A DNA stretch of 64,000 nt from Caldithrix abyssi DSM 13497 (GTDB lineage: Bacteria; Calditrichota; Calditrichia; Calditrichales; Calditrichaceae), in contig NZ_CP018099.1 in the NCBI RefSeq assembly GCF_001886815.1, forward strand, positions 1,300,501 through 1,364,500, given 5' to 3'. Under the pieces are notes generated by a model that was given only the letters and a program-made list of their open reading frames with translations, searched no databases and was not told the DNA's origin. Shown piece by piece: positions 4,123 to 42,778 of this stretch (positions are counted from its first letter, which is position 1; every line of letters starts with the position of its first letter). The position numbers were made by a program, and so were the translations under genes.

Positions 4123-4144
4123 TCGACATAAAAAAGGAGCAGGA

Positions 4145-7473: not shown

Positions 7474-7537
7474 AATCTTAAATGGCTACAAAACAACGCT
7501 ATTAAAGGGGTAATCATTCTTAAAAGGAGAGGAAACA

Positions 7538-9774: not shown

Positions 9775-9852
9775 ATGTTATGGCATTGCTTTTGCAATGT
9801 TTTGTGGACATATTAAACAGCGGCCTGTAAAATCAGTAAAAACGGGAAACAA

Positions 9853-18292: not shown

Positions 18293-19913
18293 TATCTTTG
18301 CCTTTGCGCGAAAAAATCCCCTGCTTTACCTGGCTCTGATATCCGGCGTTTTTTTACGGTTGATCTTTGTTTTTGCCGGGCATTACATCTCGCCGGATGG
18401 CACGCATTACGCCTTGCTCGGTTTTAACTGGCTTCACCACGGGCACTATGTGAGCGGCGGCAGTCAATTCCCGGATGTTATTCAACCGCCTCTGTATCCT
18501 TTGCTGTTAGGCCTGTTTTCATTCGTCGTTTCGCCGGAACTGGGCGGCAAATTGGTGTCTTTAATTTTTGGCCTGGGCTTAATCGCCATGGCCTATTGGT
18601 TTGTGGTTAGTCTTTCGCAGAATCGGAAGTTGGCTGGCGTTACGGCCCTGCTGGTTGCGTTTAGTCCGGCGCTGGTTGCCGTGTCTTCTCAGGTGGCCAC
18701 TGAATCGCTTTTTCTATTTTTGTTGTTCAGCGTCTTCAGTACGCTCTCTCTTTTTATTAAAGATGAACATCCTAAAGCGCGCCGTTTTTTGATTCTGGCC
18801 GGCATGTGCAGCGGCCTGGCCTATTTAACGCGCCCTGAAATGATTGTCTACATTTTTATGGTGGTCATCATTTTACTGGTGTGGCGCAAAAAAATTTACA
18901 GCGTGCTGCTGTACGGAACGATGGTAGGATTTTTCGTTTTACTGTACGCCCTGTTTGTTTTTTCCGTTTCGGGCCGCTGGGCGCTTTATCCAAAGATCGA
19001 TTTTGTTAGAGTTCACGGCCAGCTTTCCAGATATTATTTGCAGCAGGACGCTTTAAAGGGCGAGGAAACAGATTTTAAAGAACATCTGCAGCGCTTTCGT
19101 TATTCGCTGGCGCCGGATAAAAAAGAGTTGTTTGTCAATGCCGTGTTTGAAGGAAGAATTAAAGCGCCTGTTGTTCGCACAAAGGAACAGAATAAGACAG
19201 AGAAGGTCCAATCATTCCTTATTTTTGCCGGCAAAAATTGGATGAACGCCGTTAAAAAATTTTTGTGGGGATTAATTCTGCCGCCCGGTTATCTTTTATT
19301 TTTACTGGTTGGCCTGCTGCGCTTTCCATGGAAAAAGCACAAAGGATTGGCGCTGTACACGGCCATATTTTTGTTGCCGACCTTAAATGTTTTGTTTGTT
19401 TACGTGGAGCAGCGTTTTCTCTATTTTCCGGGATTGATTTTAATGCCCCTGGTAGCCTTTGGCGTTTTTAAATTTGCGGAGCTGGTTTCGAAAGAGGGTA
19501 AAACGTCTGCCCGGGAAAAGCGAGCTGTAATATTGATTGTGGTTTTTCTTCTTACAACGGCGGTTCCCGGCTATGTGCAGCTACATTCAAATGTGCGCAG
19601 CAAAGCGTACTATTACCAGGCAGGTCAGTGGTTAAAACAAAAGACGGAAGATGGGGCAAAAATTGCGGCAATAACGCCCCAGGCAGTGTACTTTGCCAGA
19701 AGACCGTTTGTCGTTTTGCCCTATGCTCCTCTCGATTCCTTGCAATTATATTTGCGTGAAAATCAAGTAAATTATATTTTAAAGGAATACAAGAGAAGAA
19801 GCCGCACGGCGGAAGGGGCTAAGCTTGAGTCCTGGCCCCGCTTTCTGCAGCCTGTTTCATCAAAAGTTTTTGACGGGCATACAATGATACTTTTGCGTGT
19901 AAAAAAGGAGTGA
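18285..19913 (+). CDS. PMT/ArnT-like (GT39/GT83-type) membrane glycosyltransferase
   Basis: This 542-residue polytopic protein has many hydrophobic segments in its first 400 residues and a soluble C-terminal part. The first external loop contains ISPDGTHYALLGFNWL, where the aspartate sits at the place of the catalytic acidic residue of GT-C enzymes. QPPLYPLLLG follows, a pattern frequent in this family. GT-C enzymes take sugars from polyprenyl-phosphate and add them to proteins, lipids or glycans on the outer face of the membrane. The preceding protein supplies a plausible donor synthase. The acceptor is unknown. Confidence 0.82.
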   Translation: MNNIFAFARKNPLLYLALISGVFLRLIFVFAGHYISPDGTHYALLGFNWLHHGHYVSGGSQFPDVIQPPLYPLLLGLFSFVVSPELGGKLVSLIFGLGLIAMAYWFVVSLSQNRKLAGVTALLVAFSPALVAVSSQVATESLFLFLLFSVFSTLSLFIKDEHPKARRFLILAGMCSGLAYLTRPEMIVYIFMVVIILLVWRKKIYSVLLYGTMVGFFVLLYALFVFSVSGRWALYPKIDFVRVHGQLSRYYLQQDALKGEETDFKEHLQRFRYSLAPDKKELFVNAVFEGRIKAPVVRTKEQNKTEKVQSFLIFAGKNWMNAVKKFLWGLILPPGYLLFLLVGLLRFPWKKHKGLALYTAIFLLPTLNVLFVYVEQRFLYFPGLILMPLVAFGVFKFAELVSKEGKTSAREKRAVILIVVFLLTTAVPGYVQLHSNVRSKAYYYQAGQWLKQKTEDGAKIAAITPQAVYFARRPFVVLPYAPLDSLQLYLRENQVNYILKEYKRRSRTAEGAKLESWPRFLQPVSSKVFDGHTMILLRVKKE

Positions 19914-19916
19914 CCC

Positions 19917-20777
19917 ATGAGAGAAAAAATGCAAATGATTAAACGCCTGATCGATGAAGAAATTGACCAGAGATTGCAAAACGACAATCCATTGATCGAG
20001 GCTTTGTACAAATCGGCGGCCTATTCCGCCGCCGGCGGTAAGCGGATTCGGGCTGTTTTTGTGTTCTACACGGGCGAACTGTTTGATGTGCCGCAGGAAA
20101 AGTTAATCAATGCCGCCTGTTCCATCGAATTGATCCATGCCGCCTCGTTGATTATGGACGATTTGCCCTACATGGATGACTCGCAGTTGCGGCGTGGTAA
20201 ACCGGCCAATCATGTGGTGTTCGGGCAGGATGTGGCTTTGCTGGCCAGCATAGGTCTGATCTCCGAAGGCATTCAGATGATTTTATCTGACGCCCATTTA
20301 ACGGAAGACGAGCGATTGAAGGCCGCGCAGGTGCTGAGCGCTTCGTTTGGATTTAACGGCCTGGCTGCCGGGCAGTTTGTTGATCTTAAAATCAAAGATA
20401 AAAATGTTAACTTTGAAATTATTGAGTTTATCAATCAAAAAAAGACCGCGGCGCTTTTTTCCGCAGCCGGCAAGGTGGCGGCCATTATCGGCCATGCAAA
20501 CGAAGACCAGGCCGCGGCCATTCAAAAATTTTCCGAGGACATCGGTTTTGCTTTCCAGATTGTGGACGATATGCTCGATGTGATTGGCGAAGAGAAGCTG
20601 GTTGGCAAAAATATCGGACAGGATCGCATGAATTTTGTCAAGCTGGTGGGCATGGAACAGGCCAGAAAATACCTGGCCGAATACCACCAGAAAGCGGTGA
20701 AATCTCTGGAAATTTTTGGCGATAAAGCCGCCGGTTTAAAAGAACTAAGCGATTATTTAATTCAGCGTGTTCGTTAA
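19917..20777 (+). CDS. Short-chain polyprenyl diphosphate synthase (FPP/GGPP-type)
   Basis: This 286-residue trans-isoprenyl diphosphate synthase has the first aspartate-rich motif in the bacterial form DDLPYMDD (residues 81-88, two extra residues between the aspartates) and the second as DDMLD (about 217-221). GGKRIRAVF, RRGKPANH and the K-T pair after INQKK bind the diphosphates. It makes C15-C20 allylic diphosphates from IPP. The start follows AAAAAGGAGTGACCC, a strong ribosome-binding site. Its place between a PMT-like enzyme and a UbiA prenyltransferase suggests supply of a prenyl donor for the cluster product, but housekeeping isoprenoid synthesis is equally possible. Confidence 0.9.
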   Translation: MREKMQMIKRLIDEEIDQRLQNDNPLIEALYKSAAYSAAGGKRIRAVFVFYTGELFDVPQEKLINAACSIELIHAASLIMDDLPYMDDSQLRRGKPANHVVFGQDVALLASIGLISEGIQMILSDAHLTEDERLKAAQVLSASFGFNGLAAGQFVDLKIKDKNVNFEIIEFINQKKTAALFSAAGKVAAIIGHANEDQAAAIQKFSEDIGFAFQIVDDMLDVIGEEKLVGKNIGQDRMNFVKLVGMEQARKYLAEYHQKAVKSLEIFGDKAAGLKELSDYLIQRVR

Positions 20778-22278
20778 TATTAATCATTTTTCCAAACAAT
20801 TTTATTCTGGATTGAGAAGGCCCGGGGCAAACGGCTTCGGGTCTGTTTCTATTTTATCCCTTCTGATCATATCTTTTTTGGCCGTTGCGCTTGATGCGCA
20901 GGATGGCATCCCGCCTGTTAAATTAGATGATTTCAATAAAATACACGCCTGGTGGGATTACCACAAAGACGGTAGCGCCGCTCTGGACGACCGGGCCATG
21001 GTTAACGGTCGCGGTTATTTGCTGTTGCGCTTATCAAATCCCAACGCTGAGCAAGAGTGCAATGTGGCCATCTCCGAATTTCAGAATATTTACGGTAAGG
21101 CCATTAAGCGGCTTCTGGTCGAAACGCGCGTTAAACTGCTAACGCCCATGAAACCAGGCAGCCGGGGCTGGGGGTTCTGGAAAAGCGCTAAAGGCGCCGC
21201 TTTGCAGTCTTTATGCTGGTTTATGGAACAGATGGACGCCGGCGATGCGAGGCTGAGCTGGAAGATGATGGGCGTTGTGGCCAAAAAACAGCGCCAGACG
21301 CACCCCTGGAAGCCGGAGATCAATGTGTGGCATGTGTATCGTATTGAGCGCGACCTGGTCTCCAATACCACACGTTTCTGGATTGACGACTCATTGCTTT
21401 TGCAAACCGCGCAGCTCGCCCCCGCCGATCGGCTTTCCTTCCACCTGTGGATCGACAATCAGGTCTATTCGAAAAAGGGACTTGTGCGGGCCGCCTGGAA
21501 CGGTGAAAGCGCGCTGCTGGTCGATTACGTTAAAATTGTTACGCAACACAGAAAAAAATCTACGTCTGACGTAAAACATCCGGCGCTTCTTCTCTACAAA
21601 GCGTGGAACGATGTGCTGGTTGGCTCTGGAGAGTACGTCATTGGCGATTTCTCTTTTCAAACCAGCGGTCCCACGGTGTATGGCCTTTTAACGGCCCGCC
21701 TGGAAAGCTACGATGGCTTTGATGAAGACGACGCCCTGATGCTTTATCTGGATGATGATACTGCGCCCGTAAAAAAATGGAGCGGCAAAGATTTAAAAGG
21801 AGCCACGCGCACTTTTTTCTTTGAGTTAGAGGCAGAGCCGGGCAGCCATCGTTTGCGTTTAAGCGGGAAAAACACACCGACGCTGTACGACCTTTTGCTG
21901 GTGGACGGCGGCAAGGCCCGAATTTTGTTCAACAAAGCGCTGCAGCCCCTGTCGCCCGACTCCATGGAAATAATCATCCGGAAAGAACCGGACGCGGCGC
22001 TGCTGGGATATGCCGCCGCAACGCTGGATGAATCGCCCGAGTTCAATCATATTCTGCCTGTCGGTCGGCTCGAAGAGAGCGATCAGGATTTGCAGATCCG
22101 CATGCTTGATCAGCAGAGCAATTTACTTAAAGCCTTTTTCTTTTGCGGGAATGAAAGTCTGGGAGAATGCCGGACAAAGCTGTGGACGATCCGGGGCGAT
22201 GCGTCGGAAGTTTTAGTAAAACTCAGGCAGCAGGGAAATCCTGAGCTGCACCGCCTGATTTTTTTCCAATCGTATTAA
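20767..22278 (+). CDS. Secreted jelly-roll-like protein, paralogue 1 of 3
   Basis: This protein of about 503 residues has no named function that I recognise. The reading starts at GTG 20767, overlapping the synthase gene by 11 bases; there is no good ribosome-binding site, so the start is uncertain. A signal-peptide-like run (SILSLLIISFLAVALDAQ) lies at about residues 28-45. The body shares with the proteins at 24628 and 26530 a first module (PGSRGWGFWKS, CWFMEQ, NVWHVYRIER, LLVDYVKIV) that looks like a concanavalin-type beta-sandwich. A second module has YDGFDEDDALMLYLDD ending in PGSHRLRLSGKNTPTLYD. Only one copy of module 2 is present and there is no sorting tail, unlike the other two. Confidence 0.7.
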   Translation: MFVNINHFSKQFYSGLRRPGANGFGSVSILSLLIISFLAVALDAQDGIPPVKLDDFNKIHAWWDYHKDGSAALDDRAMVNGRGYLLLRLSNPNAEQECNVAISEFQNIYGKAIKRLLVETRVKLLTPMKPGSRGWGFWKSAKGAALQSLCWFMEQMDAGDARLSWKMMGVVAKKQRQTHPWKPEINVWHVYRIERDLVSNTTRFWIDDSLLLQTAQLAPADRLSFHLWIDNQVYSKKGLVRAAWNGESALLVDYVKIVTQHRKKSTSDVKHPALLLYKAWNDVLVGSGEYVIGDFSFQTSGPTVYGLLTARLESYDGFDEDDALMLYLDDDTAPVKKWSGKDLKGATRTFFFELEAEPGSHRLRLSGKNTPTLYDLLLVDGGKARILFNKALQPLSPDSMEIIIRKEPDAALLGYAAATLDESPEFNHILPVGRLEESDQDLQIRMLDQQSNLLKAFFFCGNESLGECRTKLWTIRGDASEVLVKLRQQGNPELHRLIFFQSY

Positions 22279-22344
22279 GCCATGTTCCGCCCTTTCTCTT
22301 TGGGGAAAAGATTGGCATGAAGGCGAGATTTTATTTAAACCCCA

Positions 22345-22534
22345 TCCCCCCAGATGGGAATTCGAAATGAACGGCCGGTGACTAATTTAATTTTTGAACC
22401 AGGATTTGCTTGATTTTTGGATTACCAGGATTTGCTTTTTAACTTTTTCATTAAATTTAGAGAATAAAGTCGCATCGAGCGCATAAAATCAAGGCAATCC
22501 TGTAATCCTTTTAATCAAGGTTCAAAAACTACCT
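22345..22534. repeat. Intergenic repeat C, copy 1
   Basis: About 190 bases beginning TCCCCCCAGATGGGAATTCG recur in the same orientation at 22901-23098. The part after GTGACTAATTTAATTTTTG has rough inverted ends (TTTTTGAACCAGGATTTG at the left, AATCAAGGTTCAAAAAC at the right). No gene is visible. Confidence 0.75.
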
Positions 22535-22546
22535 CCAAACTCCCAG

Positions 22547-22680
22547 AGTAGCACAGCCGCAACCCAAAACAACCGTAACGCGCGCAGAATAATTTTCTCG
22601 CAGATTACGCCAATCATCGCAGAAAATGATTGAACAAATTATTTTGAGAGCAAAGTTAAGCAAATCGCCACAATTGCTCC
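22547..22680. repeat. Intergenic repeat A
   Basis: This block, beginning AGTAGCACAGCCGCAACC and containing TCGCAGATTACGCCAATCAT, matches blocks at 37762-37860 and 51982-52100 in the same orientation, and at 34510-34621 and 34680-34784 in the opposite orientation. The MITE-like element follows directly at 22684, so this copy may be interrupted by it. Confidence 0.75.
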
Positions 22681-22683
22681 CGA

Positions 22684-22857
22684 GGGTGTCTCAAAAGCGA
22701 CATTAAATGTATTTTTATGCAAATATAGGTAAAAGTTTACGATAGCCCTCACCCCCTTTCCCCCTCTCCCGATTTTCGGGAGAGGGGGAACTAAAGGGGG
22801 TGAGGGAAAGAAAAAACTTTATAAAAATACATTTTCTTTGACTTTTGGGACAGCCCC
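22684..22857. mobile_element. MITE-like hairpin element, copy 2
   Basis: This 174-base element is the second copy of the one at 12540-12713. The left end is GGGTGTCTCAAAAG; the right end reads GGGCTGTCCCAAAAG on the opposite strand. ATGTATTTTTAT occurs about 26 bases inside both ends, so the terminal inverted repeats extend over roughly 35 bases with mismatches. The centre is a near-perfect stem (CCCCCTCTCCCGA, TTTT loop, CGGGAGAGGGGG), flanked by CCCTCACCCCC and GGGGGTGAGGG. No open frame is present. Confidence 0.78.
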
Positions 22858-22900
22858 GGGCTGGGGGATGAGTTTTTAAAACAGCACAAAAATTTTCAAA

Positions 22901-23098
22901 TCCCCCCAGATGGGAATTCGAAATGAACGGCCGGTGACTAATTTAATTTTTGACCCAGGATTTACTTGATTTTGGGATTACCAGGATTATTTTTTCTGCA
23001 TTCCAAAATTTATCTTTAAAATGGAATACATCGTTTAATTGTAGTAAAAAATCAAGAAAATCCTGTAATCCTGAAAATCAAGGTTCAAAAACTATCTC
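22901..23098. repeat. Intergenic repeat C, copy 2
   Basis: This is the second copy of the repeat at 22345-22534, in the same orientation and about 560 bases downstream. Its internal part has drifted (ATTCCAAAATTTATC is not in copy 1), while both ends are well kept. Confidence 0.75.
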
Positions 23099-23100
23099 TA

Positions 23101-23460
23101 AAGCAGCATAGCAGCAAACAAAAACATTCCCAAAGGAATTTAAGCAACCACTGAGAGCGCAGAGAACTCACAAAAGGCGCAAAGAATGTTTTAAATTAAA
23201 TTGCCCTTGCCTGCTCGATCCTCACTCCCAGACAAAAGATCAGGAATGAACGTACTTGTAAGGGCGAAGGATTTCCAACCCTATTTTATCCAGAGTGTTT
23301 TTTTTATCTGACTAAAGATTAATGCTTACCAGCGCTGAATTGTTCCTGGGAAATCCTTCGCCACTACATAAACGGTGGTAGGAATTCACTGTATTTGCAG
23401 AAACAAATTTGGAATGACAGACTAACCATTCAATCATTCAACCATTCAACCAATCAACAG
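23101..23460. repeat. Intergenic repeat B with embedded palindromic element
   Basis: This block starts AAGCAGCATAGCAGCAAAC and contains GATCCTCACTCCCAGACAAA. It is nearly the same as 52146-52535 and overlaps in content with 37859-38140 and, inverted, 34262-34530. At 23258-23368 it contains a palindromic unit whose arms read TGTAAGGGCGAAGGATTTCC and, inverted, GGAAATCCTTCGCC. The gap 22279-23584 is filled by these repeats and I see no gene in it. Confidence 0.78.
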
Positions 23461-23584
23461 CCCTGGCAGGACAGATGCTACGAAGGAAGTATCCTAAAAA
23501 ACAAATTTTGAGAATCTCGTGACCTGCAACATGGATGGTTGAAACCAGGACGGCTAAATTAGCACAGACATTTTAAAACAAAAG

Positions 23585-24631
23585 TTGATTATGTTACAGG
23601 CAATTCAACATTATATCGGCTGGCGCAATTGGGCGGTTTTTCGCTACAACTCGGTGTTTGAGAATTTTTTTGTCTTGCTGATCATTGCCTTATTGCAGCA
23701 GGCCTTTCACTGGAATTTTGTGCTGCGCAGTTTGGTGTTCATCCTGTTCAGTATTCTGGCCACAACTTACGGTTATTTGATCAATGATTACTCGGACAGG
23801 GAACTGGATCGACAGCACGGCAAGCCCAATACGTTTGAGAAGGATTCGGCGGTTAAAGCCAGAATGGTTCTTTTGAGTGTTTTATTGCTGTTTGTTGTAG
23901 CCGGTATTCCATTCTGGAATCAGCCTTATTTTTTACCGTTAATTGCTTTGTGGTTTTTGATTACAACGTTTTACAGTTTGCCGCCCATTCGCCTTAAAGA
24001 ACGCGGGGCCTTAAATATTGTGTTCGTAACCATGGCTCAGCGTTTGCTGCCCATCTTAATTCTATTTTCGGCCTTCGATTTTTGGGAAGCCAAATATGTA
24101 TTGCCGATCTCTTTGTACGTTCTGCTGCGCGGGCTGTCTTCAGATATCAATCACCAGCTGGAAGATTACAAAAATGACGTCAAAACGGGAACCAGAACGT
24201 TTGTGGTCAGTATGGGTTATCAGCGGGTAAAAAAACTATTCAATATCAATCTTCATCTGGAAAAAATCATGTTAGCCGTTCTGTTGGTTCAATTTTCGCT
24301 GGACTTAAGTTTTTCAGCAATCATTTTAAACGGTTTGTGGTGGCTAACCGCGGCGCTTTATTTTTTGGCCCTGTTCTGGTTTTTGCTGGATAAACGGCAG
24401 TGGCAAACCAATCCCTTTGATGCGCAGAGTCGGAGTCTGTCTCAGTTTTTGCATCACGCCTATCCTTCGGTGGGGCTGCCGCTCATGTTGAACGTAATTC
24501 TGAGTGTTTTGTATTTTCCATTCATACTGTTGTTAATCTTCCAGATTATCATCCGCCGTTTATATTCGCTGGAGATGATCGGCGGAAATTTTTTGGTCAG
24601 GTTTTTAATTCAAAGGTTTAGGGGGGAATGA
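23585..24631 (+). CDS. UbiA family prenyltransferase
   Basis: This 348-residue polytopic membrane protein has both aspartate motifs of the UbiA superfamily: NDYSDRELD at about residues 67-75 and DINHQLEDYKND at about 187-198. These bind prenyl diphosphate through magnesium. Eight or nine hydrophobic segments are visible. UbiA enzymes join prenyl chains to aromatic rings, glycerol phosphate or ribose phosphate. The motifs alone do not choose among these. It overlaps the next gene by 4 bases, tying it to the secreted paralogue family and the rest of the island rather than to quinone genes. Confidence 0.88.
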   Translation: MIMLQAIQHYIGWRNWAVFRYNSVFENFFVLLIIALLQQAFHWNFVLRSLVFILFSILATTYGYLINDYSDRELDRQHGKPNTFEKDSAVKARMVLLSVLLLFVVAGIPFWNQPYFLPLIALWFLITTFYSLPPIRLKERGALNIVFVTMAQRLLPILILFSAFDFWEAKYVLPISLYVLLRGLSSDINHQLEDYKNDVKTGTRTFVVSMGYQRVKKLFNINLHLEKIMLAVLLVQFSLDLSFSAIILNGLWWLTAALYFLALFWFLLDKRQWQTNPFDAQSRSLSQFLHHAYPSVGLPLMLNVILSVLYFPFILLLIFQIIIRRLYSLEMIGGNFLVRFLIQRFRGE

Positions 24632-26514
24632 TGTTAAGGATATTAATTGTGCTTTGTCTGGTTGTTGCGTTAAGCGCCCAGACGTATATTATCCCCGATT
24701 TACAACGCGATGATTTCAAAGATTTTAAAACGTGGTGGTCCATAAATATTTCGGGCGAAAACCATACCTGGGGCGTATTCAACGGTTATTTTATGGCCAC
24801 GCTGAATAATCCTAATAACGGCCAGCAGGGCGGAGAGTTGCCAGTAGATATGACGGGAATGGAAAATATCGGCTTTAGCACCGCTTACCTGATGCATGTT
24901 TATTCCAAGGACGATACAATTCAGGCCATCATTCGCGTAAAAACCTTAAATGCCCTGCCGCCGGGCAGTCGGGGATGGGGCTTCTGGCGTTCTGAAGAGC
25001 TGCCAATCACCATCAATCAGGCCACCTGGGTGTTTGAACAAAAGGCCGATCCCATCTATAGCTGGGCGTCGCTTGAAACCTGGTGGCGCGCTCGTATCAC
25101 GCGCGGCCTTCAATTTCACAAAAGCGTGGATTTAACCGTTAATAATCAGAACTGGCATGTGTATCGCATTGTGCGTTTTGGCCGCCAGTATTACGAGATT
25201 TACGTCGATGATGACCCAACGCCGGTGGTGCGCGCCGACACCAGCGACCTTGGCGGTATTTTGAACGAAGATTACGGCTTTGATTGCTGGAACGACAATC
25301 TCATCTACCGTTACACGCAAAGCGCTACAACCGGCAACGACACCGTGGAAGTGTATTACGCCGGCTGGCTGGGATCGAGTTCGTTTGTGGTGGATTATGT
25401 GGAAATCATCAGTGGAAACTACAAGTACGGTCATACGGTTGCGCCGCAGGGCGCGGTGCGCTTAAGAGAAGTCATCAACGAAATTGACAACGGCGTGCAG
25501 GATGGCCTGTGGAAAGGACCGTATCAGTTTACAGTGGGCGGCGGCCCCTGTTTGATTTTGGCAACGGCCAAAGCGGAAGAGCTGGACGGCTACGGGGACG
25601 ACGACGATCTGAAAATTGTGCTGGATGGCAAGGATTTCGGTTACAATACGCCAAGAAGCTGGGATGGCGATACGGATCAGGGCCAGCCCAAAACCATTGT
25701 GATTGATACGGTGCTCAGCCCGGGAACGCATGAAATCTCTTTTTACAGCGAAGCCACGCCCATTTTGTACGACGCCACGGTTCTGGAAGCGCCCAACGGT
25801 CAGGTGGTGATTAATCAGACCTTAAACGAAAGCGCGCCGGCAGGCAGCGTCGATTTTCTGTGGAAGACTTTCGAGTTCGACTGCGACTCCGGTCAGGTGG
25901 CCATTTACATTAGCGGCAGCGCCGATGAGGAGCCGGGATGGAATTACCGAAATTATCCGGATCCCAACGGCGTTTTTGCGGATATTGACAGCACGGATGA
26001 TGATGAACTGCGCGTTGAGCTGGATAACTGGGATTATGGCTGGGGAACGGACAGCGCCATGATGGGCAATACGCTGTTTGGCGATAGTAAAACCATTTTG
26101 ATCATGCAGGACGTGCCGGCCGGGCATCATGTGTTGAAACTGTACGCCAACGAAACGCCCACCGTGTATAAAGTGATTGTTTACGTGGAAAATAAAGCGG
26201 CGGCCAGCCCTCTTGAACGCCGCACGGCGCTGGCGCAAAGTTTTGAACTGGGCGCCAATTATCCCAATCCTTTTAACCCGAGCACAACCATTCCTTTTAA
26301 AATACCACAGGCCGGGCACGTGGTGTTGCAAATTCTGGATGTTAACGGGCGAATCATTCAAACCTTAATTGACAAACGGTTGCAGCCAGGCGCTTACCAG
26401 GCGCGCTGGAGCGGCAACGACTTTTTAGGTAAACAGACGGCTTCCGGCATCTATTTTTATCGATTGAAATACAATAAACAGGTAACGACGCGGAAGTTAA
26501 TAAAGCTTAAATAA
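24628..26514 (+). CDS. Secreted jelly-roll-like protein with type IX sorting tail, paralogue 2 of 3
   Basis: This 628-residue protein has an N-terminal signal peptide (LRILIVLCLVVALSAQ). Module 1 (about 20-260) shares PGSRGWGFWRS, INQATWVFEQ, NWHVYRIVRFG and VVDYVEII with its paralogues and looks like a concanavalin-type beta-sandwich. Two copies of a second module follow (about 275-390 and 400-530), each with an acidic strand (DGYGDDDDLKIVLDGKDFGY; then DDDELRVELDNWDYGWG) and an end segment like AGHHVLKLYANETPTVYK. The last 85 residues are a FlgD-like Por sorting domain (NYPNPFNPSTTIPFKI to LIKLK). Secretion and cell-surface attachment are expected; ligand and activity are unknown. Confidence 0.8.
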   Translation: MMLRILIVLCLVVALSAQTYIIPDLQRDDFKDFKTWWSINISGENHTWGVFNGYFMATLNNPNNGQQGGELPVDMTGMENIGFSTAYLMHVYSKDDTIQAIIRVKTLNALPPGSRGWGFWRSEELPITINQATWVFEQKADPIYSWASLETWWRARITRGLQFHKSVDLTVNNQNWHVYRIVRFGRQYYEIYVDDDPTPVVRADTSDLGGILNEDYGFDCWNDNLIYRYTQSATTGNDTVEVYYAGWLGSSSFVVDYVEIISGNYKYGHTVAPQGAVRLREVINEIDNGVQDGLWKGPYQFTVGGGPCLILATAKAEELDGYGDDDDLKIVLDGKDFGYNTPRSWDGDTDQGQPKTIVIDTVLSPGTHEISFYSEATPILYDATVLEAPNGQVVINQTLNESAPAGSVDFLWKTFEFDCDSGQVAIYISGSADEEPGWNYRNYPDPNGVFADIDSTDDDELRVELDNWDYGWGTDSAMMGNTLFGDSKTILIMQDVPAGHHVLKLYANETPTVYKVIVYVENKAAASPLERRTALAQSFELGANYPNPFNPSTTIPFKIPQAGHVVLQILDVNGRIIQTLIDKRLQPGAYQARWSGNDFLGKQTASGIYFYRLKYNKQVTTRKLIKLK

Positions 26515-26529
26515 AGGCACAGATAAAAA

Positions 26530-28737
26530 ATGGTGCGAAAAATTGTTTTACTCCTTACGGTAAGCGGATCCCTGTTGTTCGGTCAAACCTACATCATCCC
26601 CGATTTGCAAAGAGATGACTTTACGGGAAGCGCTTTAAAAAGCTGGTGGTCAAATGTCAAAGCGCCGAGTTCTTCAACCAATCACACGTTGCAAGTGTTG
26701 AATGGCTACCTGGAAGCCGTTCTGAAAGATCCGCTAAACGGCGGGCCGGGCGGACGTTTACAGGCGGATTACAATGGGATGGAAAACATTGGCATCGCAA
26801 CCGCCTACAATACGAACTTGTATTCCAAACACCTGCAGATGACCGCTGTAATGCGCGTTAAAACATTGAATGATTTAAATCCCGGAACGCGGGGCTGGGG
26901 ATTCTGGCGAGCGGAGGGCCTGCCGGTTACCATCAATCAGGCTACCTGGTTTTTTGAACAAATGGCCGTGCCCGACTCTTCCTGGGCTGCGGCTGAAACA
27001 TACTGGCGGGCGCAGACTCTTAAGGGCATTTCTACCGATTACAGAAAGGAAAGCGATTTAACGGCCAGCAATCAAATCTGGCATGTGTACAAAGTAAAAC
27101 GCTACAGCGGCACCAGCAGCGAAGCGTATTACGAACACTATATTGACGGTGTGCTGGTTCAGCGCATTGTGCCTGCCGACTTCCCTGACGGTAATATTTT
27201 AAATGAAGATTATTCTTTCCATGCCTGGAATGACAATCTGGTCTATCATCACACTACAACCGCCTCGGGGCAGGACACCATCGAGGTGTTTTACAACGGC
27301 TGGTTGGGCGCCAGCGCCTTTGTTATCGATTTTATTGAGATCACCAAAAACGGTTACGATCCGGGGTACATGGTGACGCCAGTTGACGCTTCGGATTTTT
27401 TACGTTTAAGAGCCTATGAGAGCGAAATGGATCAGGGCATCTCAGACGGCTTGTGGAAAAGTTACTCTTTTGAAACGCAAGTGGGCAATACGTTTGTCAT
27501 TGTCACCGCCAAAGCCGAAAACTACGATACCTACGATGGCGATGACAATTTGAAGATTGTGGTGGATGCCACCGATTACGGTTATGATACGGTGAACAGC
27601 TGGAACGGCGATGTGGACGACGGTTTGCCTAAAACACTGGTTTTTACGCCTGCTTTATCGGCCGGCAGTCACACTCTGGAAGTTCATAGCCAGAATACGC
27701 CCGTTTTGTACGACGTTAATGTTTTAAACGCGCTGGAAGGCGCCCTGGTTTTAGATCAAACTTTAAACGAAACCGCTCCCGCCGGCAGCCAGAATAATTT
27801 GTGGAAGGAATTTACCTTTAACTGCGATGCCGGGCCCATCGCCATTTACGTCAGCGCCAGCGCCGATGAAGAGCCGGGCTGGGATTACATCAACGCCAAT
27901 ATCGATAGCTCTGATGATGACGAACTGCGCATTGAGCTGGATAATACCGATTTTGGCTGGGGCGGAGACTATGGTTTTGAAGGGAACGGGCTATTTGGCG
28001 ACGTTAAAACTGTGCTGATTAAAGATACGGTTGCCGGCGGTACGCATACCCTAAAACTTTACGCCAATGAAACGCCGACCGTTTACCGCGTTCTTGTTTT
28101 TGCGGAAAACGGAGATTATTCTCTGCCGGTAGCGCTTTCTACGTTCGAAGCCGCGCGGACGAACGCAGGCGTGCTTTTGCGCTGGACCACGGAAAGCGAA
28201 GTCGATAACCACGGCTTCAATATCTACCGCGCGGAATCTGCAGACAGTTTGCTGCCCGGGGACGAAACGTTTGTTAAAATTAACGAAACCATCATTACCG
28301 GCCAGGGCAGCCGCTCCACTAAACATAGTTATGAATTTATCGACAACGATCAGACCAATCAGACCTGGCTGTGGTATCGATTGGAATCTGTCAGCCTTGA
28401 TGGAAAAACGACCGTTCATAAAACGGTAGCGCTCGCGCCGCGCGAAACGCCCGCTCTTCAAGCATTTCGCCTGTGGCAAAACTTTCCCAATCCGTTCAAT
28501 CCCATGACCGCAATTCGCTTTGCCATTCCACAGGAAATGTTTGTGACGGTGGAAATTTTTAACGTACATGGTCAAAAGATCCGAACCCTTTGGGAGGGAC
28601 AATTAACGGACGGAGAGCACCGCTTTTACTGGGACGGGCGTAACGACCAGAGTGAACAGCAAAGCTCTGGCGTGTACATCTACCGCATTAAAACGCCGCG
28701 CCGCATGCAATCAGGTAAAATGACCTTGCTCAGATAA
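26530..28737 (+). CDS. Secreted jelly-roll-like protein with type IX sorting tail, paralogue 3 of 3
   Basis: The 735 residues have the same layout as the preceding protein: signal peptide (IVLLLTVSGSLLFGQ), module 1 (PGTRGWGFWRAEG, INQATWFFEQM, IWHVYKVKRYSG, VIDFIEIT), and two acidic modules (YDGDDNLKIVVDATDYGYD; DDDELRIELDNTDFGWG). It then adds a region absent from paralogue 2 (about 535-640, LSTFEAARTNAGVLLRWTTESEVDNHGFNIYR). That is the common fibronectin-like domain found before type IX sorting tails. The tail is NFPNPFNPMTAIRFAI to GKMTLLR. It starts 15 bases after its neighbour, which supports tandem duplication. Confidence 0.8.
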   Translation: MVRKIVLLLTVSGSLLFGQTYIIPDLQRDDFTGSALKSWWSNVKAPSSSTNHTLQVLNGYLEAVLKDPLNGGPGGRLQADYNGMENIGIATAYNTNLYSKHLQMTAVMRVKTLNDLNPGTRGWGFWRAEGLPVTINQATWFFEQMAVPDSSWAAAETYWRAQTLKGISTDYRKESDLTASNQIWHVYKVKRYSGTSSEAYYEHYIDGVLVQRIVPADFPDGNILNEDYSFHAWNDNLVYHHTTTASGQDTIEVFYNGWLGASAFVIDFIEITKNGYDPGYMVTPVDASDFLRLRAYESEMDQGISDGLWKSYSFETQVGNTFVIVTAKAENYDTYDGDDNLKIVVDATDYGYDTVNSWNGDVDDGLPKTLVFTPALSAGSHTLEVHSQNTPVLYDVNVLNALEGALVLDQTLNETAPAGSQNNLWKEFTFNCDAGPIAIYVSASADEEPGWDYINANIDSSDDDELRIELDNTDFGWGGDYGFEGNGLFGDVKTVLIKDTVAGGTHTLKLYANETPTVYRVLVFAENGDYSLPVALSTFEAARTNAGVLLRWTTESEVDNHGFNIYRAESADSLLPGDETFVKINETIITGQGSRSTKHSYEFIDNDQTNQTWLWYRLESVSLDGKTTVHKTVALAPRETPALQAFRLWQNFPNPFNPMTAIRFAIPQEMFVTVEIFNVHGQKIRTLWEGQLTDGEHRFYWDGRNDQSEQQSSGVYIYRIKTPRRMQSGKMTLLR

Positions 28738-28738
28738 A

Positions 28739-29182
28739 ATGTCTAAATTCAGAATTTTTGTTGGGATATCGGTTTTGATAATTACGCCGCTGGGCTTTTT
28801 AACCAAAGCCTACCACGGCATCGGGGCGGACTGGGTGAACAATTCGCTGGGGGGCGTGCTTTACGTTGTTTTCTGGTGCCTGGTGGCTGCCTTTTTAAAA
28901 CCGCAGTGGAAAGAAAAGTTTATTGCCATTGGCGTTTTTACGGTAACTTCTCTGCTGGAAGCAGCTCAGTTGTGGCATCCTCCCGTTCTTGAGTGGTTAC
29001 GTTCGTTTTATCTGGGGAAGGTGCTATTAGGCACAACCTTTGCCCTGAGCGATTTTCCGCATTACGCGGCGGGGGCTTTGCTGGGCGCCCTGTGGATAAA
29101 AAGATTGCGAATTTTTACCGCACGCCCAATGGGGGTGGATTCCAACAACGCGAATGCGTTAAAAGAAAAAGGAGAATTTTAA
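28739..29182 (+). CDS. DUF2809-like small membrane protein
   Basis: This 147-residue protein has four hydrophobic segments (about 5-22, 33-55, 62-80, 103-122) and the PLGFLTKAYHG start and GGVLYVVFWCL segment typical of DUF2809/VanZ-like proteins. The function is unknown in the family. It starts one base after the stop of the secreted paralogue. The hydrophilic C-terminal 25 residues add no known motif. Confidence 0.6.
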   Translation: MSKFRIFVGISVLIITPLGFLTKAYHGIGADWVNNSLGGVLYVVFWCLVAAFLKPQWKEKFIAIGVFTVTSLLEAAQLWHPPVLEWLRSFYLGKVLLGTTFALSDFPHYAAGALLGALWIKRLRIFTARPMGVDSNNANALKEKGEF

Positions 29183-29209
29183 CGAACCTTAAAACTTTGA
29201 GAATGAACA

Positions 29210-30163
29210 ATGCCTGAGCGATTTTTTGAATGGTACTACATCGATATCCACCAGGACGATGGATACGATCTGGTCTTTAGTCTGCACACACACCCTTTTA
29301 TGTCGCAGTTTAACATCAGCATTCTGGACGCCTTTGTCTATTTTGGGAAGCGCCAGATTTTTCATAAATTTCTGATCCTTCCCCGGGATGAAATGCTAAA
29401 ACAAGGCGAAGGAACCGTTGCCTTCCGAAACCGAAAAATTAGGCTGGATATGGAGAAAAGGCGCGCCGTGTTTAAAGTAGAATCCGAAAAATTCCATTTA
29501 GACCTTACTCTGCAAAATGAAATGGAGGCAGACCTGCCGCTCTCCATGGATTTGTACGAAAAGAACGCGGAAAAGTCGTTTGAATGGAAAGTATTCATGC
29601 CCCTGGCTCGCGCTTCCGGGCGCTTTTCATACATCGATCCGCAGACCAACCGACAAAAAATGTTGACCCTTACAGGCCGCGCCTACTTTGATTCCAACAG
29701 GGGCACCATAAATCTCAAAAAAGAGATGGATCACTGGCACTGGGCCAAGCTGTATTTTAAAGACGCCCTGTGGATTGTGGGCAAGGTGGTCGATAAACGG
29801 GGCAGGGCCGTAAATATTGTAGTAAACTGTTCGCCAGAACAGATGAGCGTTGATCGACAGGCTAAAATAGCTTTTCAAAAAAATGAACTGCACATTGACT
29901 GCGTTTTTGGCAATAAACATCTACATTTTAAAAAAGAATTTATTCTGGACGATCAGCGCTTTTTGATTGCCACCTGGCCAGAAATGTTTTCTTTACCCGG
30001 CAAAATCATTGAGGCGGTTGCCGGGGTGGCCGTGCAAAAACAATCGCTGCGCTGGCTGGCAAGGATTTTAACCAACGGACGCTATTTTCGTAAACGCTGG
30101 CTGGCAGAAGCGCAGAACGGCGAGCAAGTCTTAATTTTTGGCGAAGAGATGCTTTTAAAATGA
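29210..30163 (+). CDS. CrtC-like (hydroxyneurosporene synthase/lipocalin-fold) protein
   Basis: This 317-residue protein begins FFEWYYIDIHQDDGYDLVFSLH, the EWYYxD start of the carotenoid 1,2-hydratase (CrtC) and tocopherol cyclase-like lipocalin families. DHWHWAKLYFKDALWIVGKVVDKRG in the middle matches the second lipocalin-like repeat, where catalytic aspartate and histidines lie in CrtC. Family members add water to isoprenoid double bonds or bind hydrophobic ligands. Its position after a polyprenyl synthase and a UbiA enzyme makes an isoprenoid substrate attractive, but this is inference. It overlaps the next gene by 4 bases. Confidence 0.6.
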   Translation: MPERFFEWYYIDIHQDDGYDLVFSLHTHPFMSQFNISILDAFVYFGKRQIFHKFLILPRDEMLKQGEGTVAFRNRKIRLDMEKRRAVFKVESEKFHLDLTLQNEMEADLPLSMDLYEKNAEKSFEWKVFMPLARASGRFSYIDPQTNRQKMLTLTGRAYFDSNRGTINLKKEMDHWHWAKLYFKDALWIVGKVVDKRGRAVNIVVNCSPEQMSVDRQAKIAFQKNELHIDCVFGNKHLHFKKEFILDDQRFLIATWPEMFSLPGKIIEAVAGVAVQKQSLRWLARILTNGRYFRKRWLAEAQNGEQVLIFGEEMLLK

Positions 30164-32628
30164 GGCAAACGATCTTTGATTTAAAACAGGTAAAGGCGGT
30201 AAAAAAGTTTGGCCGCAAAGCGGTTAATCTGGCCGGCCTGCAGCGATGGGGCTTTAATGTGCCCTTAACCGGGGCGCTTTCCAGCGACGCCCTGCAGTAC
30301 GTGTTAAAGCGTATCCCTGCGGTTAAACAACTAAAAGAAGATCATCCGCTATTAGAGGCGGCGTTAAACCAAATCCGGGAAGAAATCCTGAAATTCTCCC
30401 TGCCCGGAAATCTGGAGCGGGAGCTCGGTCATTTAATCGATCGTTTTGCCAGCGCAGGCATTCAACGCATTGCGGTGCGCTCTTCGGCGGTGAGCGAGGA
30501 TCGGGCCGATTTTTCGTTTGCCGGACAATACGCAACCGTTCTGGACGTTCCACTACAAATAAATGAAATTTGGCAGGCTGTTAAAACAGTATGGGCCTCT
30601 TTGTTCAATCCGGCCATCTGGGAATATTGCCAGAAGATCGGTCTGCCGTCGCCCGGTTTGCAAATGGGCGTTATTTTACAGGCCATGGTCGAGGCGCGCT
30701 TTGCGGGCGTTGCCTTTTCTGTAGATCCCAATCATCCGGAAAATGAAAGAGTGGTCGTCGAATATGTGCCGCAAAAAGGCGACGGACTGGTTAGCGGCGA
30801 GGTCACACCGCAACATCTGGAAATTGTGCGCCAGGATTTTCATTTAAATCGGCACGATAACCGCGCATTGGACTGGTTAAATCCGCTGATTAAAGAACTG
30901 CTCCGGCTGGAAAAATTGGCAGGCCAGCCTGTGGATGTGGAATGGGCGGTCAGCGAACAGCAGGTGTATTTTTTACAGTACAGGCCCATTACCACCTTGC
31001 GGCGAGTCATCATCTGGACGCGGGAAAATGTGGGCGAGGTGATCCCCGATGTGGTTACGCCCTTTACCTGGAGCATTCTGGAGCCCATTACCAACGGCGC
31101 CTACCGATACTTCTTGAAAAAAACAGGGCTAAAGATCGGAGCGCAAAAATTGTTTACCCTGTATCACGGCAGGGTTTATTTTAATCACAACGCCTATCAA
31201 AAAATGGTCAACGCATTTTATGTTTCCAGCTATATTGTGCCCGGGCGCCGTAAAATCATTAATCTTTTAAAGGCGTCAAAATTGCTGCTTTTGTTGGCGC
31301 GGTTGTGGTATTTAAGTTTTCGTTTGCCCGGCCAGATTGAGGGCATTCTTAAAAAGCAGGAAAAAAAGTTCAGGGCTTTAAAAAATAGCGCCAGAGGTAA
31401 AGGCGATTTCCGCGCGGTAAAAACGGCGATTAAAATGATCGACCGGTTGATGAAGGTTCATGTTTGCGCCACCATTCTGGCCGAATTTTATTATCAACTG
31501 CTAAATAAGATTTGCCATGAAACATTGGACGATGCGCAAATCGACGCCAGTCGCTTGCTGCAGGGTGTTGGACAAGTGGAAAGTACAAAGTCTGCCCTGG
31601 CTCTGTGGGAGATCGCTCACTGGATCCGCCAGAATAAACGCTATCGCGCTATTTTTGAAAAAGAAAGCGTTGAGCAATTAATAAAATGGTGGCGTCAATT
31701 ACCATCCAGCGATGTGTTTAAACAACAGCTCGAACTGTTCATGGAAAATTTTGGGTACGCCGCCCTGCATGAGTTCGAAATAAGTTATCCGCGCTGGCAC
31801 GAAGAGCCCGCCTACGTGTTTGGCGCCTTAAAACAGTACGTACGATCGGAAGAGGGGTACGCCGCTGTCAATCGGCAGTACAAACAGATGGAGCGGGAAC
31901 GGCAGATCATTGTGGAAAGAGTTCGAAATGAGATCGGCTCCAGGGATTCTCGCGCAAAACTGCTGCTGTTTAATTATTTGCTTAAAAAGGCGGAATATCT
32001 TAGCTTTCAGCGCGAATTTTTAAAACAAAAAATTCTCAGATGGCTTGATCTGTTAAAACAAAATCTGCTTTCGATTGGCGAGCGAATGGCCGGAGACGGA
32101 AGCGAAATTTTTTATCTGGAATTGAAAGAAGTGGAAATGCTATTGAAAAACCAGCAAGCGCAAGAACGTCTTAATTTGCTGATTAAGCAGAGGAAAGCGC
32201 AGAGAAAAAAATACTTGCGGGAAAAATATCCGCCAAAAATCAGGCAGATCGGGGCGCAGTGGACGCCCATTTTTGAAAAATCGGCGGCTGATAGCGGATT
32301 GCGCGGCCTGGCCTGCAGCGCGGGCGTGGTGGAAGGCCGGGCCTGCGTTATTGTGGATGTGGAGCGAGAAGGTTCGCGCTTTACCCCGGGCGATATTCTG
32401 GTGACCAGAGCTACCAATCCGGGCTGGACGCCCGTTCTGGCATTGGCCGGCGGAATTATTACGGAGCTGGGCGGCGCTCTTTCCCACGGCGCCATTATTG
32501 CCCGCGAATTTGGCATTCCTATGGTGGCTGCCGTGTCAGGCGCCACGGAAAAGATTCAAACCGGCCAATGGATTAAGCTGAACGGTCAAAGCGGAACGAT
32601 TGAGATTGTGAAGGAGGTTGTTGAATAG
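30160..32628 (+). CDS. PEP-utilising/ATP-grasp phosphotransferase (PEP synthase or rifampicin phosphotransferase-like)
   Basis: The 822-residue protein has the pyruvate phosphate dikinase N-terminal ATP-grasp domain (about residues 5-290: KAVNLAGLQRWGFNVP, RIAVRSSAVSEDRADFSFAGQYATVL, VDVEWAVSEQQVYFLQYRPI). At the C-terminus is the swivelling phosphohistidine domain (GDILVTRATNPGWTPVLALAGG, then GGALSHGAIIAREFGIPMV; catalytic His about 776). The PEP/pyruvate barrel is absent; about 450 residues of other sequence lie between. That layout matches rifampicin phosphotransferase and PigC-like enzymes, which pass ATP beta-phosphate through histidine to a small molecule or condense two substrates. 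The 4-base overlap with the CrtC-like gene suggests both act on one product. Confidence 0.82.
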   Translation: MRQTIFDLKQVKAVKKFGRKAVNLAGLQRWGFNVPLTGALSSDALQYVLKRIPAVKQLKEDHPLLEAALNQIREEILKFSLPGNLERELGHLIDRFASAGIQRIAVRSSAVSEDRADFSFAGQYATVLDVPLQINEIWQAVKTVWASLFNPAIWEYCQKIGLPSPGLQMGVILQAMVEARFAGVAFSVDPNHPENERVVVEYVPQKGDGLVSGEVTPQHLEIVRQDFHLNRHDNRALDWLNPLIKELLRLEKLAGQPVDVEWAVSEQQVYFLQYRPITTLRRVIIWTRENVGEVIPDVVTPFTWSILEPITNGAYRYFLKKTGLKIGAQKLFTLYHGRVYFNHNAYQKMVNAFYVSSYIVPGRRKIINLLKASKLLLLLARLWYLSFRLPGQIEGILKKQEKKFRALKNSARGKGDFRAVKTAIKMIDRLMKVHVCATILAEFYYQLLNKICHETLDDAQIDASRLLQGVGQVESTKSALALWEIAHWIRQNKRYRAIFEKESVEQLIKWWRQLPSSDVFKQQLELFMENFGYAALHEFEISYPRWHEEPAYVFGALKQYVRSEEGYAAVNRQYKQMERERQIIVERVRNEIGSRDSRAKLLLFNYLLKKAEYLSFQREFLKQKILRWLDLLKQNLLSIGERMAGDGSEIFYLELKEVEMLLKNQQAQERLNLLIKQRKAQRKKYLREKYPPKIRQIGAQWTPIFEKSAADSGLRGLACSAGVVEGRACVIVDVEREGSRFTPGDILVTRATNPGWTPVLALAGGIITELGGALSHGAIIAREFGIPMVAAVSGATEKIQTGQWIKLNGQSGTIEIVKEVVE

Positions 32629-32629
32629 T

Positions 32630-33946
32630 ATGAAACGCGTATTGCTCATTCCCAGCGATCATGGCGGCGGACGCGGACACGTAAGCCGGTGCATCTATCT
32701 GGCTAAAAAATTGCAGGCTGGAGGCAGCGAGACGGCCATTGTGCTGGAACAAAAGCACTACCAGGATGGTATTGACGCCGGCATTCCGTCTTACCTGCTG
32801 GACACCAAAAAAGAACGATTTCTGAAATTTCAATTTAAAAAGCCTTTTTGGCCGCGTATTAAAATGATTGAGCGCGTGGAGCGTCCCCCCGTCTTTCTGG
32901 TATTTAACGGCGTGGCTTATCAGGTGCCGCGCGACGAATACCTTTCCACACGCATTGTGCTCATGCGTTTTAAAAAACTGGTGAAAATAGTAGAACAATT
33001 TAAGCCCGACGTTTTGATCGGCGATACGCATTTTTTGACCTTTTTGCTGGGAAAAAAGTTTTCTCTCCCGGTTATTCAAATTACGCGACTGGCCGCTTTT
33101 CCGCCCGCGCCCCGCTTCTTCTGGTGGCTGCAGGATGAACCGCGGTTAGTGGAGCCCAACGCCATAGAACCATTTGCGCCCCTGCTGGAAAAATTAGCCA
33201 TCAACGACGTGCGCAAGGCGGAAGATTTGTTAAGGGGCGATCTGTACCTGATTCCCGCTTCCGATCAGATCGAACCCGTGGATGGCGGGCGGGATGATGT
33301 GCTGTTTTGCGGACCACTGACGGAAAATTACCGGGGAGATCAAAAAATTCCGTTTTTTGATTTGCCGGTGGATGTGCCCAAGATTTATGTTACCGCCGGA
33401 GGAGGCGCCAATCGCTTTGGGCAGCAGGCCTTTTTTGAAGCCCTTTTAAAAATATTTGACCGGCGCGATTTTAAAGTTCTGGTTTCCACAGGCGGACTCT
33501 ATCCGGCCAAAAACCTGAACGGTCAATCGACCAACGTGTTGTTTGTGGATTGGATCGATGGAATGAGCGCCATTCGTAAAAGCGATCTGGTCATTCATCA
33601 CGGCGGTTATGGCTCGATGATGGAAACGCTATCTGCGGCCAAGCCTTCCATTGTCATCCCCTTTCATTCGGAACAGGAAGGAAACGGCAGGCGGCTGAAG
33701 GAGCTGCAGGTTGGCGATTTGCATCTGCCGTACGCCGGTAAGCTGCAAGACCTGCTTTTTTCGTGGCCCTTTGGCGTGTACTCGATGATGGCCGGCACAG
33801 AACTGGCGCTGGATGCGGAGCAAATCATCTCGATGATTGATGGGATTTACGACCAGTCGCTTTACGCTCGCCTGCAAAAGATCAGCGAAGAATTATTGCG
33901 TTTACAGAAAAATTTCGATGCGCTTAAAATGCTGGAAAGGGTTTGA
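32630..33946 (+). CDS. UGT/MurG-like glycosyltransferase
   Basis: I choose ATG 32630, giving 438 residues beginning MKRVLLIPSDHGGGRGHVSRC; the TTG at 32618 touches the AAGGAGG ribosome-binding site and cannot be used well. The fold is GT-B of the GT1/GT28 type: the N-terminal GGGRGHVSR loop binds the acceptor, and the C-terminal donor site has HHGGYGSMMETLSAAKPSIVIP followed by FHSEQEGNGRRL. Such enzymes glycosylate lipids and small hydrophobic molecules. It is the last gene of the plus-strand island, right after the phosphotransferase. Confidence 0.85.
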   Translation: MKRVLLIPSDHGGGRGHVSRCIYLAKKLQAGGSETAIVLEQKHYQDGIDAGIPSYLLDTKKERFLKFQFKKPFWPRIKMIERVERPPVFLVFNGVAYQVPRDEYLSTRIVLMRFKKLVKIVEQFKPDVLIGDTHFLTFLLGKKFSLPVIQITRLAAFPPAPRFFWWLQDEPRLVEPNAIEPFAPLLEKLAINDVRKAEDLLRGDLYLIPASDQIEPVDGGRDDVLFCGPLTENYRGDQKIPFFDLPVDVPKIYVTAGGGANRFGQQAFFEALLKIFDRRDFKVLVSTGGLYPAKNLNGQSTNVLFVDWIDGMSAIRKSDLVIHHGGYGSMMETLSAAKPSIVIPFHSEQEGNGRRLKELQVGDLHLPYAGKLQDLLFSWPFGVYSMMAGTELALDAEQIISMIDGIYDQSLYARLQKISEELLRLQKNFDALKMLERV

Positions 33947-42623: not shown

Positions 42624-42778
42624 TGCGGCTCCCTTTCGTTTGTTTTTATTAAAATTAGTCAAAATATGGGAAAAATACAACGTTCTTTTTTTCATCGAGC
42701 AAGTTTATTAAATTTATGAAATAAAACAATGCTTTAAAAGCGTTTAGACAGACTAAGTTCCGATTGATGGAGGTTTTT

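Follow-up and report, generated by a model that had tools for sequence, protein, structure and literature searches.

The locus and its gene content

In this work we analysed a 64,000-nucleotide stretch of Caldithrix abyssi DSM 13497 (contig NZ_CP018099.1, positions 1,300,501 to 1,364,500; called the window here), which lies within a genome of 4.98 Mb in one contig and carries a run of co-directional genes where isoprenoid enzymes, a phosphotransferase, a glycosyltransferase (UGT) and three secreted proteins are interleaved. The original prediction, made from the letters alone, proposed that this run, from 19917 to 33946, is a candidate system for a new glycolipid or prenyl product. This work shows that it belongs to a block of some twenty genes, and that this block is a real, conserved and dedicated set. 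Genes are named below by their first position in the window. The run contains:

19917..20777, + strand: short-chain polyprenyl diphosphate synthase (FPP/GGPP type), dedicated copy (polyprenyl_synt 8.8e-48)
20767..22278, + strand: secreted GH16-fold paralogue 1, with neither a type IX secretion system (T9SS) tail nor the GH16 ExDxE motif (model, motif scan)
22279..23584, no strand: non-coding gap of 1.3 kb before UbiA, containing copies of a roughly 200-bp dispersed repeat
23585..24631, + strand: UbiA-family prenyltransferase (PF01040 6.1e-19; the ATG at 23591 is the likelier start)
24628..26514, + strand: secreted GH16-fold paralogue 2, with a T9SS type A tail (FlgD_ig/Por_Secre_tail C-terminal domains)
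26530..28737, + strand: secreted GH16-fold paralogue 3, with a T9SS type A tail (FlgD_ig/Por_Secre_tail C-terminal domains)
28739..29182, + strand: DUF2809 membrane protein, present only in the loci of same-genus relatives
29210..30163, + strand: CrtC/AttH-fold protein with W8, W126, Y159, D161, W176 and W178 (model fold, conserved residues)
30160..32628, + strand: phosphotransferase or ligase with PPDK_N and phospho-His mobile domains and no phosphoenolpyruvate (PEP) barrel, Rph/PigC-like (Pfam)
32618..33946, + strand: GT1/GT28 (MGT-like) glycosyltransferase, the UGT, with which the part of the block kept outside the genus ends (Pfam/NCBIfam)

All the reading frames first proposed are present, on the + strand, and Pfam and NCBIfam models agree with the families given to the polyprenyl synthase, UbiA, the phosphotransferase and the UGT. 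The CrtC-like assignment of 29210 holds by fold and is weak by sequence (NCBIfam 1.6e-6). The three secreted genes are indeed paralogues (25–52% identity), and sequence models assign no family to 20767. The tight spacing that had been described is found at every junction from 19917 to 33946 (overlaps of 4–11 bases or gaps of 1–27 bases) save one, the 1.3-kb gap at 22279–23584, which had gone unmentioned; the DUF2809 gene sits between 26530 and 29210. The gap contains two repeat copies (22344–22553 and 22900–23116). Because the equivalent junction in the congener G002 measures only about 0.35 kb, the gap looks like a local insertion. The repeat, found here inside the operon before UbiA, has at least 40 occurrences across the genome, some of them closely grouped.

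Conservation and extent of the block in Calditrichota

Co-occurrence was scored in a sample of 40 Calditrichota genomes, and synteny was read from the locus stretches. Orthologues of the phosphotransferase (long match) and of UbiA (one of them weak) are each found in 21 genomes, those of the UGT in 20, of the locus polyprenyl synthase in 19 and of the CrtC-like gene in 18. All five enzymes occur together in 17 of the 40 genomes and none of them in 16, which is the conserved co-occurrence that the original prediction had proposed to look for, and pairwise Fisher p values range from 8e-6 to 1.5e-10, uncorrected for kinship. In each of the 20 genomes with both a phosphotransferase and a UGT orthologue the two adjoin, and the CrtC-like gene, where present, is immediately 5' of the phosphotransferase (18/18). 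The order epimerase, methyltransferase, GT2, GT2-GT2, PMT-like, polyprenyl synthase, secreted 1, UbiA, secreted 2/3, CrtC-like, phosphotransferase, UGT is found again in further genera, families and orders, accompanied by the polysaccharide genes that start at 590. The set is not limited to the run first reported: the conserved block is longer, from about 590 to 33946, and includes the following upstream genes, the first six lines being assigned with Pfam/NCBIfam:

590..12369, + strand: upstream polysaccharide genes, in the same order in G002, G019, G016 and G020 over the stretches covered
590, 1953, 7538 and 8602, + strand: GT4 glycosyltransferases
3091, + strand: polysaccharide deacetylase
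4082, + strand: APH-like kinase
5203, + strand: heparinase II/III-like lyase
9853, + strand: 838-amino-acid protein with a weak HepB-like end
12902..13864, + strand: deacetylase-like protein, conserved within the block (50–76%)
13868..14818, + strand: NAD-dependent epimerase/reductase, HpnA/OleD/3beta-HSD-like, kept in Chloroflexota loci too
14808..15683, + strand: methyltransferase (domain match, conserved in the block)
15685..16581, + strand: GT2 glycosyltransferase, with a 48% identical relative in the Chloroflexota locus L074
16574..18292, + strand: tandem GT2-GT2 glycosyltransferase (domain match, order conserved)
18285..19913, + strand: PMT/ArnT-like membrane glycosyltransferase (domain match, order conserved)

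On the other side, the downstream neighbour TPR34882 lies near the UGT in G002, and neither it nor SBP38479 was found beside the UGT in loci of other genera, families or orders, so the widely conserved block stops at the UGT. These results bear on the alternative that unrelated genes run in one direction here by chance. Densely packed genes on one strand are nothing unusual, and the 1.3-kb gap breaks the run, but gene order and co-occurrence are kept across families, orders and two phyla (see below), whereas the two downstream neighbours do not stay close to the UGT beyond the genus; synteny already refutes this explanation, to which we give next to no credence. The genes are neither scattered in relatives nor unlinked housekeeping orthologues, and the original prediction withstands both objections that it had raised against itself: the genome has six UbiA genes, and two polyprenyl synthases besides that of the locus, so the locus UbiA and polyprenyl synthase are extra copies. 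The UbiA protein 23585 has the domain and both Asp-rich motifs of its superfamily, NDxxDxxLD and HQxEDYxND, which are conserved in the Calditrichota family; the second varies to RDxxRD in Chloroflexota.

The window contains a second UbiA domain, outside the conserved block, fused to a PNPOx-like N-terminal domain (42764–44317, + strand).

A related core in Anaerolineae

The search across phyla was made with one query, UbiA, over 84,980 species genomes, and may have missed other phyla; outside Calditrichota it retrieved three Chloroflexota genomes, and in their class, Anaerolineae, 11 of 396 genomes have a UbiA match. The phosphotransferase gene lies at most 1.4 kb after UbiA in all seven Anaerolineae contigs that reach that far, and CrtC-like and UGT genes come next in G040 and G270, which gives two Anaerolineae loci with the UbiA–phosphotransferase core and both further genes. 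On the upstream side there is an epimerase gene and a GT2 gene; a radical SAM/SPASM protein, an HprK-related kinase, an RtcB-like protein and a flippase are encoded there too. No relatives of the secreted paralogues were seen at the Chloroflexota loci; the core thus crosses phyla, and the secreted proteins are a Calditrichota addition, a point on which the original prediction needs correcting. Variant loci contain prenyl-modifying flavoproteins, a geranylgeranyl-reductase-like one inside the locus of G030, and a CrtI-like and a geranylgeranyl-reductase-like one in G270, and these strengthen the isoprenoid reading.

An exopolysaccharide- or lipopolysaccharide-like locus could be imagined whose prenyl genes supply the lipid carrier alone, without any prenylated product in its own right, 30160 being a prenol- or glycan-phosphorylating enzyme in the manner of glucan water dikinase on starch. 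Heparinase-like, deacetylase, GT4, GT2 and PMT-like genes do share the conserved block, and the Chloroflexota version has flippases. The geranylgeranyl-reductase-like and CrtI-like genes of the variant loci are at odds with a pure carrier function, however, and we know of no place for a UbiA transferase or a CrtC-fold enzyme in undecaprenyl-phosphate carrier synthesis. We regard this explanation as rather unlikely.

Several features of the variant loci are recorded here in their own right. Geranylgeranyl-reductase-like and CrtI-like flavoproteins are at L077 14379–15707 (- strand) and L097 2931–5366 (+ strand). HprK-related kinase and RtcB-like genes stand side by side in Chloroflexota loci (L074 6047–8564, L096 13812–16420, L098 7375–9766). 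A second, diverged UbiA-like gene lies next to the main UbiA in two Chloroflexota genomes (L096 11943–12824, L105 935–1488).

The CrtC-like protein 29210

Searching solved structures by sequence with the single 29210 protein gave no match, and a profile of the CrtC-like family found only AttH (2ich). The structural model of 29210 (predicted local distance difference test, pLDDT, 93.6) matches AttH 2ich in Foldseek at 2.0e-10 and, in VIA comparisons, the pericyclases Fsa2, Phm7 and CghA over the full length (Z about 23), AttH (Z 19.3), 25-phosphosteroid lyase (Z 18.5) and kievitone hydratase (Z 18.5). The modelled protein is thus predicted to have the CrtC/AttH two-barrel lipocalin-like fold, with Z of 18–23 over 250–278 residues, the next unrelated row being at Z 6.2. 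It shares the full-length fold of this whole family, several members of which act on prenyl or isoprenoid termini, but is only about 10% identical in sequence to the solved members.

W8, F124-x-W126, Y159-x-D161 and W176-x-W178 are invariant in the 29210 family. The pattern F-x-W ... Y-x-D-(14)-W-x-W is spaced as H239-x-W241, Y266-x-D268 and W283-x-W285 of Rubrivivax CrtC (RgCrtC), and W8 can be set against W110, so that the counterparts of Asp268, Tyr266, Trp241, Trp110, Trp283 and Trp285 are all present; the mapping was made by published residue numbers, not by direct alignment, because there was no verified CrtC sequence to align. Mutants at these residues are inactive or strongly impaired in Rubrivivax CrtC, where D268 has been proposed to protonate the terminal prenyl double bond, and His239 is essential and conserved in 100 CrtCs (PMC4717167, PMC12402844). 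While 29210 shares the Trp box and the Asp proton donor with CrtC at the published spacing, it has a Phe (Phe124, in 17/17 members) at the position of His239, and its gene surroundings lack carotenoid synthesis genes. Because of this replacement we do not file 29210 as a carotenoid hydratase; on the model and its residues we read it as an enzyme of the CrtC kind acting on an isoprenoid chain, with an outcome possibly altered. The fold and active-site residues strengthen the prenyl-modifying role that had been suggested for it.

One candidate CrtC yardstick, a plasmid-borne gene with the annotation 'carotenoid 1,2-hydratase', was dropped: it too has Phe at the His239 position and so does not count as a verified CrtC.

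The CrtC-type active site, together with the CrtI-like gene of one Chloroflexota locus, could also point to a carotenoid route, in which UbiA would be a lycopene elongase, 29210 a hydratase of the bisanhydrobacterioruberin type and the UGT a carotenoid glycosyltransferase, yielding a C50 carotenoid glycoside. We hold this to be improbable: His239 is not kept, the locus of the source genome has neither phytoene synthase nor desaturase, the only squalene/phytoene-synthase-family (SQS_PSY) gene of the genome is 2.6 Mb from the locus, and genomes without the locus also carry such genes.

The phosphotransferase 30160 and the UGT

The 30160 protein has a PPDK_N domain (3.9e-48) and a PEP-utilizers mobile domain (1e-23), after which it ends, with no PEP-binding TIM barrel in Pfam; the original description of a PEP-utilising, barrel-less phosphotransferase stands and can be made more exact by placing the protein in the Rph/PigC-like group of PEP-synthase homologues. 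The VRSS and RP motifs of the ATP domain and the phospho-His in GG..SH.A..ARE are present. VRSS..ED is kept in all family members but two Chloroflexota copies, and the phospho-His motif in all members covering it, slightly altered in the distant copies of G025 and G030. The ATP domain and the phospho-His mobile domain are shared with Rph, PigC/RedH and PEP synthase, and the lack of a PEP barrel with Rph; the closest solved structure is 5fbs (3.6e-51), which we take to be rifampin phosphotransferase. Unlike all of these enzymes, 30160 is under every curated cut-off (343.8 against 883, 313 against 1300 and 272 against 999 bits for the NCBIfam rifamycin phosphotransferase, PigC and PEP synthase equivalogs) and its gene sits with UbiA and, in most cases, with CrtC-like and UGT genes. 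Both phosphorylation and condensation are possible for 30160, because its homologues phosphorylate hydroxyls or join two substrates.

The likeness to 5fbs, and the fact that PigC/RedH and MGT models score, would be expected of an antibiotic production or resistance island, with 30160 as a rifamycin phosphotransferase or prodigiosin-type ligase and the UGT as a macrolide-inactivating enzyme. All these scores are far below the equivalog cut-offs, however, there is a single copy of the UGT, and across the phylum the genes are not sporadic but conserved along with UbiA and the secreted paralogues, which makes such an island very improbable.

The phosphotransferase homologue directly after UbiA at L074 11171–12862 has no recognisable ATP-binding domain, and the one at L101 8026–10158 may be similar.

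The secreted paralogues

A model of 20767 built from a 25-sequence alignment (pLDDT 88.2) predicts a GH16 beta-jelly-roll at residues 48–262; the best structural row is Rv0315, a pseudo-beta-1,3-glucanase (VIA Z 18.9, 3.4 A, 197 residues). A second domain of the paralogues takes up residues 280–500 or so of 20767. The GH16 catalytic motif ExDxE/ExDxxE is absent in all 25 paralogues and orthologues. The 24628 and 26530 proteins end in T9SS type A sorting domains (TIGR04183 2.3e-11 and 2e-5, above the 23-bit cut-off), and 20767 has no such tail. Secreted paralogues are present in 19 of the 40 Calditrichota genomes, and the three copies of the source genome are all in the locus; of 49 matches, one (G016) is plainly on another contig and some others are on short contigs. 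The proposed link between the enzymes and the secreted proteins is borne out by this near confinement to the locus. The modelled fold suggests a surface role for the secreted proteins, as binders of the product or of its glycan. The off-locus homologue of G016 is at C2:105648–106802.

Discussion

On the observed conservation of the block, co-occurrence of its genes, folds and conserved catalytic residues, we consider it fairly probable that the block serves, as one dedicated locus, to make a cell-envelope isoprenoid glycoconjugate tied to surface polysaccharide. Several points weigh against this interpretation. The core offers no gene that would supply an aromatic or other obvious acceptor for UbiA. 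UbiA 23585 is far under all curated NCBIfam UbiA cut-offs (best 47.2 against 205 bits), and we assign it to no acceptor class for this reason; MenA, ChlG, DGGGPS and lycopene elongase were considered, and not every acceptor class has an NCBIfam model. Co-inheritance inside one phylum is confounded by descent. Some members are missing from G030 and from G031, the Anaerolineae loci G377 and G088 lack the CrtC-like and UGT genes, and two Chloroflexota phosphotransferases are without a recognisable ATP domain. The Phe in place of His239 in the CrtC-like family belongs here as well.

For a dedicated isoprenoid glycoconjugate locus we can nevertheless propose a scheme, in which we infer every substrate, product and binding role and the order of the reactions. 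The polyprenyl synthase 19917 would make a C15–C20 prenyl diphosphate, and UbiA 23585 would move the prenyl group, in the membrane, onto a polar acceptor that the epimerase, methyltransferase and GT2 genes further upstream would provide. The CrtC-like 29210, via Asp161 and the tryptophan box, would then protonate, hydrate, cyclise or eliminate at the isoprenoid chain, and 30160, with ATP and its phospho-histidine, would phosphorylate a hydroxyl of the same molecule or condense the molecule with a partner. The UGT 32618 and the GT2/PMT-like enzymes would glycosylate the product, which would be exported and become linked to the polysaccharide that the upstream genes produce. In Calditrichota, the GH16-fold secreted proteins without catalytic motif, two of them T9SS-tailed, might finally bind the product or glycan at the surface.

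As the 30160 gene directly follows the CrtC-like gene, the two proteins may act as a phosphorylation–elimination pair, by analogy with the tandem of 25-hydroxysteroid kinase (25-HSK) and 25-phosphosteroid lyase (25-PSL) of Sterolibacterium denitrificans (PMC8449060, PMC11061730). Gene adjacency and fold similarity point to this comparison, which likens a phosphotransferase and a CrtC-fold enzyme on an isoprenoid side chain by function only: 25-HSK is a 43 kDa kinase yielding ADP (PMC8449060), unlike the PEP-synthase-type 30160, and there are no steroid genes at the locus.

The original prediction knew no described pathway with this order of genes, and we found none in the open literature. None was described there combining UbiA with a PEP-utilising enzyme or PEP synthase, most subscription papers being outside the search; nothing relevant appeared on glycolipids or biosynthesis in Calditrichota, and neither UbiA nor prenyltransferases are mentioned in the paper on the Caldithrix genome. 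The nearest described parallel is the ebo operon (EboA–F), a conserved multi-gene cluster with the UbiA-superfamily EboC, whose isoprenoid hybrid product is not known; it differs in its partners, the cyclitol-synthase-like EboD and the phosphodiesterase-like EboF, and no phosphotransferase, CrtC-like or GH16-fold members are described for it (PMC5133447).

A bolder idea, which we put forward tentatively and with more doubt than confidence, is that the two-phylum core of UbiA, CrtC-fold enzyme, phospho-histidine phosphotransferase and GT1 makes a new class of surface isoprenoid glycoconjugate, with the phosphotransferase and the CrtC-fold enzyme as an ATP-driven phosphorylation–elimination or cyclisation module for the prenyl chain, and that in Calditrichota the product is bound at the surface by T9SS-exported GH16-fold lectins. 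Little has been described of the envelope lipids and glycans in Calditrichota and in many Anaerolineae, and a UbiA enzyme working with an altered-site CrtC-fold enzyme and a phospho-histidine phosphotransferase would represent isoprenoid-chain chemistry outside the curated families. Caldithrix abyssi is cultivated, so that the product can be sought directly.

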